NCBI RefSeq assembly: GCF_030698125.1
Contig: NZ_JAUYNV010000033.1
Coordinates: 62,001-126,000 of the forward strand
Origin: Methyloversatilis sp.
GTDB taxonomy: Bacteria; Pseudomonadota; Gammaproteobacteria; Burkholderiales; Rhodocyclaceae
Direction of reading: 5' to 3'
Length of the DNA stretch: 64,000 nt
This document shows, piece by piece, positions 2 through 2,005 of the stretch. Position 1 is the stretch's first letter; every line of letters starts with the position of its first letter. The notes beneath the pieces are model-generated. The model was given only the letters and a program-made list of their open reading frames with translations, searched no databases and was not told where the DNA came from. A program made the position numbers and the translations under genes.

Positions 2-2005
2 GTGCTGCAGCATGTGCACAGCAATTACGAGATCGACCTGTTCGTCGCGCTGATCGCCGCCGCCGCGCGCGAAACGCACACCACCGATCTCGACAATCCG
101 TCGTTGAAGGTGCTGGCCGACCACATCCGCGCCTGTTCATTCCTGATCGCCGACGGCGTCATCCCGGGTAACGAGGGGCGCGGCTACGTTTTGCGCCGGA
201 TCATCCGCCGCGCCATCCGCCACGGCTACAAGCTGGGCGCGCGCGCCGCGTTTTTCCACCGCATGGTGCCGGACCTGGTGGCGCAGATGGGCAGCGCCTA
301 TCCGGATCTGGCCGCGGCGCAGCAGAAGGTGATGGACGTGCTGCGGCAGGAGGAGGAGCGCTTCTTCGAAACCATTGCCAACGGCATGGACATCATCGAA
401 GCGGCGCTGGGCGGGCTGGCCGCCAGGGGCGGGCGCGAACTGGATGGCGAAACCGCCTTCAAGCTGCACGACACCTACGGCTTCCCGCTGGACCTGACCG
501 CCGACGTCTGCCGCGAGCGCAACGTGACGGTCGACGATGCCGGCTTCGAGCGCGCGATGGCGCATCAGCGCGAACAGGCGCGCGCCGCCGGCAAGTTCAG
601 GATGGCCTCGGCGCTGGAATACGAGGGCACGGCGACCGTGTTCCGTGGATATGACACGCTTGCCGTCGACGACGCGCGGGTGGTGGCGCTGTACAAGGAC
701 GGAACGCCGGTCGCGTCATTGACCGAGGGCGAGCAGGGCGTTGTGGTGCTCGACCGGACACCTTTCTATGCCGAATCCGGTGGCCAGGTCGGTGATCGCG
801 GTGTGCTGCTTTCTCCCTCTCCCGCATCAGCGGGAGAGGGCCGGGGTGAGGGCGTTTTTTCAGCGGATCAAACGCGACCGGCCCTCACCCCCGACCCCTC
901 TCCCGCTGATGCGGGAGAGGGGGGTGTCTGTTTCACCGTCGAGGACACGCTGAAGATCCAGGCGGCGGTGTTCGGCCATCACGGCGTGGTCAGCACCGGC
1001 CGTCTGGCGGTCGGCGACACGGTCAGCGCGCGCGTCGATGTGCGCGCCCGCGCCGCGACCGCGCGCAACCACTCGGTCACCCACCTGATGCACAAGGCGT
1101 TGCGCGAGGTGCTGGGCGAACATGTGGCGCAGAAGGGTTCGCTGGTCGATGGCGACAAGACGCGCTTCGATTTCGTGCATCACGCGCCGATGACCGATGA
1201 CGAAATCGCCCGCGTCGAGCGCCTCGTCAATACCGAAATCCTCGCCAACGCGGCGACGCAGGCGCGGGTCATGGGCATCGAGGACGCGCAGAAGACCGGT
1301 GCCATGATGCTGTTCGGCGAAAAGTACGGTGACGAGGTGCGCGTGCTCGACATCGGCTCCAGCCGCGAACTGTGCGGCGGCACCCATGTGGCGCGCACCG
1401 GCGACATCGGGCTGTTCAAGATCACGGTCGAAGCGGGGGTCGCGGCGGGCGTGCGCCGCGTCGAGGCCATCACCGGCGAAAACGCGGTCGGCTTCGTGCA
1501 GGGACAGGACCGGCTGGTCGCACAGGCGGCTGCGGCCTTCAAGGCGCCGCCCGCCGAACTGCCGGCCAAGATTGCGCAGACGCTGGATCACGTGCGTGCG
1601 CTGGAAAAGGAGCTGGCCCGGCTGAAGAGCAAGCTGGCATCGAGCCAGGGCGACGATCTGGCGGCGCAGGCCGTGACCATCGGCAGTGCGAAGGTGCTGG
1701 CAGCGGTGATGGAAGGTGCCGATGTGCCGGCGTTGCGCGAAACGCTGGACAAGCTGCGCGACAAGCTCGGTTCGGCTGCCATCGTGCTGGCCGCGGTCAA
1801 CGACGGCAAGGTGAGTTTGATTGCCGGCGTGACGCCGGACCTGACGGCGAAGGTGAAGGCCGGCGAACTGGTCAATTTCGTTGCTGCCCAGGTCGGCGGC
1901 AAGGGCGGCGGCAAGGCCGACATGGCGCAAGCCGGCGGCACGCAGCCGGAAAATCTGCCGGCGGCGCTGGCCGGCGTCACCGCATGGGTGGAGAGCAGGC
2001 TGTGA
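2..2005 (+). CDS. alaS: Alanyl-tRNA synthetase, C-terminal part (5' end outside window)
   Basis: Charges tRNA-Ala with alanine in the cytoplasm and edits mischarged Ser/Gly. The frame is open from the window edge, so roughly the first 200 residues of a usual 870-880-residue protein are missing. Visible here are the end of the catalytic and tRNA-recognition region, the editing-domain HxxxH motif (HSVTH) with its partner CGGTH, and the C-terminal DHHA1-like domain rich in Gly (VGGKGGGK). Between the beta-barrel sequence GQVGDRGVL and [10 protein letters not shown] there is an extra segment of about 37 residues encoded by a palindromic repeat. The reading frame survives it and everything downstream looks normal, so the enzyme is probably active. 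The stop codon overlaps the next start (TGATG). Confidence 0.97.
813..924. repeat. Paired palindromic (BIME-like) element inserted in frame in alaS
   Basis: There are two palindromes, 815-840 (11-bp arms CCCTCTCCCGC, 4-base loop) and about 895-922. They are inverted copies of each other and are separated by about 54 bases that also carry inverted GGTGAGGG / CCCTCACC blocks. The whole unit is translated in frame with alaS, giving two Pro/Ser/Gly-rich runs ([10 protein letters not shown] and PSPADAGEG). Repeats of this CCCTCTCCCGC type are common between genes in several proteobacteria; placement inside an essential gene is unusual. Confidence 0.85.

Follow-up and report, generated by a model that had tools for sequence, protein, structure and literature searches.

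The window is a stretch of 64,000 nucleotides from the 4.2 Mb genome of the betaproteobacterial Methyloversatilis sp. under study (G000), and nucleotide positions given without a contig are window coordinates. The window starts within alaS, which encodes alanyl-tRNA synthetase (AlaRS). The alaS reading frame is open at the window start, with 667 C-terminal codons inside the window and the beginning of the gene, including the N-terminal catalytic part, upstream of it. The complete gene has 918 codons from stop to stop and encodes 909 amino acids counted from the methionine. The following features were found:

2..2005, plus strand: alaS, alanyl-tRNA synthetase, with tRNA-synt_2c, tRNA_SAD and DHHA1 matches
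809..931, plus strand: the insert, at approximately residues 270-310 in the window reading, replacing the short loop of the congeners (ends approximate)
815..840, no strand assigned: left hairpin (motif count, genome hairpin scan, folding as single-stranded DNA)
844..852, plus strand: left tag GGGTGAGGG, read in the sequence and also present between hairpin and DUF559 elsewhere
853..881, plus strand: spacer of 29 bp, in the place occupied by the DUF559 gene in larger elements
882..890, plus strand: right tag CCCTCACCC, inverted (read in the sequence, comparison of DUF559 flanks)
896..921, no strand assigned: right hairpin (motif count, genome hairpin scan, folding as single-stranded DNA)

The left hairpin is the 26-bp sequence CCCTCTCCCGCATCAGCGGGAGAGGG with perfect 11-bp arms and a 4-base loop, and the right hairpin is its exact reverse complement. 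The inverted tags sit between the two hairpins, giving the order hairpin, tag, spacer, tag and hairpin. Four occurrences of CCCTCTCCC were counted in the whole window, all of them in the alaS unit; 0.37 were expected, and none of 100 shuffles reached 4. When positions 813-922 were folded as single-stranded DNA, a folding energy of -52.7 kcal/mol was obtained (z -11.0), and none of 200 shuffles was as low. For the mRNA hairpin of the insert, the value was -95.9 kcal/mol over 115 nt. Of the six frames in which the unit can be read, two contain no stop codon, and alaS is read in one of these. The two palindromes that the preliminary description had placed in frame inside alaS were therefore confirmed as inverted 26-bp hairpins. 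The unit gave no match above the gathering threshold in an Rfam scan; the matches below it were mostly to miRNA models, i.e. generic hairpins.

The AlaRS of G000 was then compared with those of its relatives. Among 19 aligned alaS genes (13 of the genus and 6 others), the insert was found in G000, G003 and G007 only. It is missing from the ten other congeners, and the remaining 16 of the 19 genes have a short, unrelated loop, e.g. ELRGAQGIFKV. The protein has 871 residues in G008, G011 and G012 and 872 in G001 and G009, so that AlaRS of G000 is 37-38 residues longer, in agreement with the addition of about 37 residues estimated beforehand. A search for alaS gave matches in all 61 genomes of relatives (weak only in G016, G028 and G042, partial in G027). 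Among the genomes listed with matches to both halves of the gene, all but the carriers break at query residues 269-274 and 305-311. In a second collection, which may overlap the 61 genomes, a short loop was present at the insert site in all of the best 80 of 587 matches. Since the best segment of these 80 loci was never above 71% identity, they apparently lie outside the genus. A second intact alaS, which the preliminary description had named as a finding that would speak against it, was not found in G000, where the sole other match scored 20.7 bits. The repeat lies in an essential enzyme encoded by a single-copy gene.

The inserts of G003 and G007 carry an additional partial unit of 33 bp, resulting in a length difference of 11 residues. 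In alaS of G003 and G007 and at an intergenic site on contig C16, a partial unit recurs that breaks off at the hairpin loop (GCTGATGC) and is followed by a new copy. The second alaS hairpin of G003 shows a loop inversion. The alaS gene of G003 (G003:C36, L079:559-3675, minus strand) also contains another insert, roughly 115 residues long and without a Pfam match, between EEERFF and HDTYGFP; its N-terminus is unlike that of the congeners, and the gene looks recombinant.

A structure model of the window part of AlaRS, based on 34 sequences, reached a mean pLDDT of 86. In this model, which follows a check suggested by the preliminary description, strands 267-270 and 310-320 enclose the insert, which is modelled as a disordered loop with a pLDDT of 40-66 in this block and below 50 at residues 277-297. 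The dN/dS values (NG86) of the insert were 0.78 for G000-G003 and 0.89 for G007-G003, and the pair G000-G007 had no synonymous change; the stretch is short and these values are rough. In the other parts of alaS, dN/dS was 0.04-0.27. The protein sequence of the insert thus looks little constrained. The preliminary description had inferred that the repeat family can be domesticated as a protein insert. Under such a reading, the insert would be selected for a function in AlaRS or because its mRNA hairpin makes translation pause. Three species have retained the insert in frame, and its synonymous changes are few, but pairing at the DNA level or gene conversion would equally yield few such changes, and their scarcity fits DNA-level pairing or recent exchange. 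Given dN/dS values of 0.78-0.89 in two of the three pairs, the modelled disorder and a length that varies by an 11-residue unit, domestication is unsupported and we regard it as highly improbable. The insert looks tolerated rather than domesticated.

The sequence around the insert was analysed in codon windows. Codons 429-584 of G000 alaS are 84-97% identical to G007 and G003 and 74-82% to G011, whereas G011 is the match, at 93-99%, for 10 of the 13 windows outside this block. The remaining three are codons 367-428 (83%), 645-704 (89%) and 885-918 (85%), and both G003 and G007 are divergent at codons 367-428. The recombination is therefore not confined to the insert: the insert (codons 520-561) lies on a shared, foreign-looking block, and the gene recombines elsewhere too. 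The diverged block around the insert is shared, and ordinary recombination would yield the same pattern as co-conversion. The intergenic C16 site is filled in G000, G003 and G007, and G011 and G012 have just a 24-bp hairpin with a similar core there, which could be a degenerate copy at this 'empty' site. A second site, on contig C10, carries a copy in G000 and G003; G007 lacks it, and its flanks there are only 76-86% identical. Sites without the unit thus exist in congeners, but their flanks have diverged and the unit ends are unreadable, with no legible target duplication.

The genome of G000 contains 22 hairpins with exact arms; together with inexact ones and after grouping of neighbours, they form 14 loci. 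Judged by inspection of reading frames and GC3 rather than by annotation, 11 of the 14 look intergenic, as the preliminary description had expected of such repeats, and 3 lie in frame in recognised genes, namely alaS, metG and uvrA. Inverted palindrome doublets that are dispersed and, by this inspection, mostly intergenic are a REPIN-type trait. The two other genes were located as follows:

G000:C40:111499-114249 (L101), minus strand: metG whose reading frame takes in three hairpins and a complete DUF559 domain
G000:C44:13355-18598 (L099), plus strand: long tandem uvrA of 1748 codons in which three repeat copies are spread over two linkers

The first uvrA linker has 57 residues between the matches to solved UvrA, the left of which is weak, compared with 28 in the structure. 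In metG, DUF559 and the repeats sit between the MetRS body and the C-terminal tRNA-binding domain. This arrangement is in frame in G000, G003 and G007; the match skipped the DUF559 stretch in all 7 other congeners searched, and the six linkers read were short. G010-G012, left out of the metG search, gave no DUF559 match. Full-length DUF559 was found in G000, G003 and G007 only of the 13 genomes of the genus (G006 had a partial match of 31 bits), the same three species that carry the alaS insert. The metG copy scores above the Pfam cut-off for DUF559 (PF04480). With a dN/dS of 0.06-0.22 in the three species, it is under purifying selection.

REPIN-RAYT systems consist of non-autonomous inverted doublets and a gene framed by the same palindromes. 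The repeats described here could accordingly be ordinary REPs or REPINs moved by a RAYT, a Y1/HuH transposase, with DUF559 as a bystander that often lands near repeats. The doublet architecture and the intergenic dispersal resemble REPINs, and G000 has two Y1_Tnp matches. Neither of these two loci has a CCCTCTCCC hairpin in a 3.2-kb stretch (RAYT was looked for in G000 only), which makes a RAYT less likely here, and the framing of DUF559 described below also speaks against this explanation. We consider this explanation unlikely. Other hairpins lie near the two Y1 transposase matches (C54 and C29; L096 and L097).

The flanks of DUF559 genes in relatives show the order hairpin, tag, gene, tag and hairpin. 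To quantify this, DUF559 loci were collected from the 61 relatives and from a draw of 299 genomes of the phylum, and 43 of 59 loci had a full stretch and were kept. They are best-scoring loci, with orthologues among them. Short or edge-cut stretches led to the loss of 16 of the 59 DUF559 loci and of 8 of 30 control loci of PIN genes, which came from the same 299-genome draw and were not matched genome by genome. When up to 2 mismatches per arm were allowed, the hairpin motif was present upstream of 29 of the 43 DUF559 genes, downstream of 32 and on both sides of 26, and was missing from one or both sides in 17. In the controls it occurred in 0 of 86 far windows, 0 of 44 PIN flanks and 4 of 76 alaS 3' ends. 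Near flanks reached a motif-free inverted-repeat score of at least 16 in 23 of 43 cases, compared with none of the 43 far flanks and none of the 22 PIN loci. Mismatched near-flank pairs, taken from different loci, also scored at least 22.5 in 5% of cases, so that part of this score comes from a motif common to the family and not from pairing specific to a locus. In 38 of the 43 loci, at least one side has a hairpin with arms of 8 or longer; the tag lies usually, not always, between hairpin and gene and faces the gene, as in the alaS unit. Terminators were rejected as the source of these hairpins, given the motif at just 4 of 76 alaS 3' ends and the hairpins that are also upstream. Generic hairpins (arms of at least 8) are common at 3' ends, being present at 31 of the 76 alaS ends, and we therefore relied on the motif and on the upstream hairpins.

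In the phylum sample, the repeat was present in 61 of 77 genomes with a strong DUF559 match and in 35 of 222 without (p 7e-24), and the association held within 13 families (CMH p 3e-9). Among the relatives, the repeat was found in 12 of 15 genomes with DUF559 and in 8 of 46 without (p 2e-5). The unstratified p-values are inflated by relatedness. A strong match was defined as E <= 1e-20, a cut chosen after viewing the list, so that 31 of 108 genomes, with weaker matches, were counted as negative; 66 genomes with neither a strong match nor the repeat entered through the total alone. The exact motif was missing from 16 of the 77 genomes with strong DUF559. Some genomes without strong DUF559 have repeats, as a RAYT would allow: G199 has 107 copies, G220 (weak match) 105 and G114 57, and G002, with no DUF559 match, has 9.

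Amplification by the host, through replication slippage or template switching and homologous recombination, would need no dedicated enzyme. The loop inversion and partial tandem units of G003 and G007 and the mosaic alaS are products expected of such processes. Since this leaves both the placement around DUF559 and the within-family association unexplained, we hold it to be rather improbable.

The arrangement varies outside the relatives. Downstream of ycjD, the DUF559 gene of E. coli, there are tagged hairpins of the CCCTCTCCC type and none upstream, and at the four DUF559 loci read in Azospirillum the palindromes are upstream only. In the Azospirillum and E. coli records examined, no cleanly empty DUF559 site showing a target duplication was seen: the Azospirillum locus was filled in 7 of 7 records covering the place, and two E. 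coli strains without ycjD have efflux genes there and not a clean gap. A further locus, in a different family from the alaS and metG carriers, was read:

G089:C2 (L161): HsdM with DUF559 in frame

Here the hairpin, DUF559 and the following hairpins are all translated, and N6_Mtase was matched in two stretches around DUF559. This is a second, independent case of DUF559 in frame, and the conserved DUF559 residues are intact in it. In L146 (G324:C201), DUF559 shares a frame with a C-terminal domain of cobalamin CbiG (Pfam), and the open frames of L145 and L148 are similarly long.

The DUF559 profile matches 3hrl, an 'Endonuclease-Like Protein' (1e-39), and 3r3p, a 'Mobile intron protein' (3.5e-4), which we take to be the EDxHD homing endonuclease I-Bth0305I. 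The residues D49, E60, D62 and H66 are invariant in 36 of 36 aligned DUF559 domains and are kept in the metG copy. DUF559 is a PD-(D/E)XK/Vsr-like nuclease. In line with this, PMC1189080 states that the YcjD profile detects Vsr. DUF559 may also do other work. According to PMC12907096, Caulobacter cells that lack a methyltransferase show a DNA damage response caused by the DUF559 protein VsrA, and VsrA was interpreted as mismatch repair; DUF559 also weakly matches a part of the model of the defence protein DpdF. Like the EDxHD homing endonucleases, the element has a similar nuclease profile and may lie on co-transferred flanks; unlike them, it has palindromic ends, no intron or intein, and inserts that keep the reading frame.

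As the closest precedent, the preliminary description had named the Rickettsia palindromic elements. They share with the alaS insert a palindromic repeat in frame in proteins, and they are not known to have a nuclease partner. They belong to another bacterial class, the likeness drawn here is that of the in-frame placement, and the alaS family differs by its nuclease-bearing form in frame in metG. They are also not the only precedent: PMC3733652 (2013), which cites them, reports intragenic REPs in other species, with uvrA and tRNA synthetase genes among the hosts, so that palindromes inside genes are not new. The GTAG- and CGTC-tagged REPs described there are likewise short palindromes, often dimers, some of them intragenic. 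The alaS hairpin differs in that neither GTAG nor CGTC adjoins the stem (read at 805-845 and 880-930), and the main text of that paper contains no 'ccctc', 'gaggg' or 'vsr'. In the open-licence literature, titles and abstracts combining DUF559 with palindromic repeats concerned unrelated subjects only, none combined it with inverted repeats, and no report of a DUF559-hairpin pairing was found in the papers searched.

Taken together, our results make it probable that the alaS insert is a non-autonomous REPIN-like doublet, and that the autonomous form of the family carries DUF559 between the same ends. The inverted doublets and the framed gene recall REPIN-RAYT, with a Vsr-like nuclease in place of the HuH transposase. 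Since the hairpins frame DUF559 in many bacteria, it is a candidate for their mover. The DUF559 protein would be made and active and would cut at the hairpin, the tag or the target, thereby moving the repeats, and repair would then copy or insert the unit. In alaS, the doublet would have landed in a tolerant loop, in a stop-free frame, and be translated as a disordered loop of AlaRS. It would then have spread among the three congeners by recombination together with its flanks, as expected from its position on an alaS block common to them.

More broadly, the chances are about even that DUF559/YcjD-type nucleases serve as the dedicated enzymes that mobilise the CCCTCTCCC palindromes in Pseudomonadota, forming a RAYT-independent REP system with miniature and nuclease-bearing units that can both insert in frame in essential enzymes such as AlaRS and MetRS. 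If this is true, the nuclease rides as a domain of a host protein. For some families of palindromic repeats, such as the CGTC REPs (PMC3733652), no mobiliser is known. With a statistically tight partner that E. coli K-12 possesses in the form of YcjD, the question of the mobiliser becomes testable in a laboratory strain. The entry of the repeat and its nuclease into synthetase genes in frame is also a route from mobile DNA to new protein sequence.
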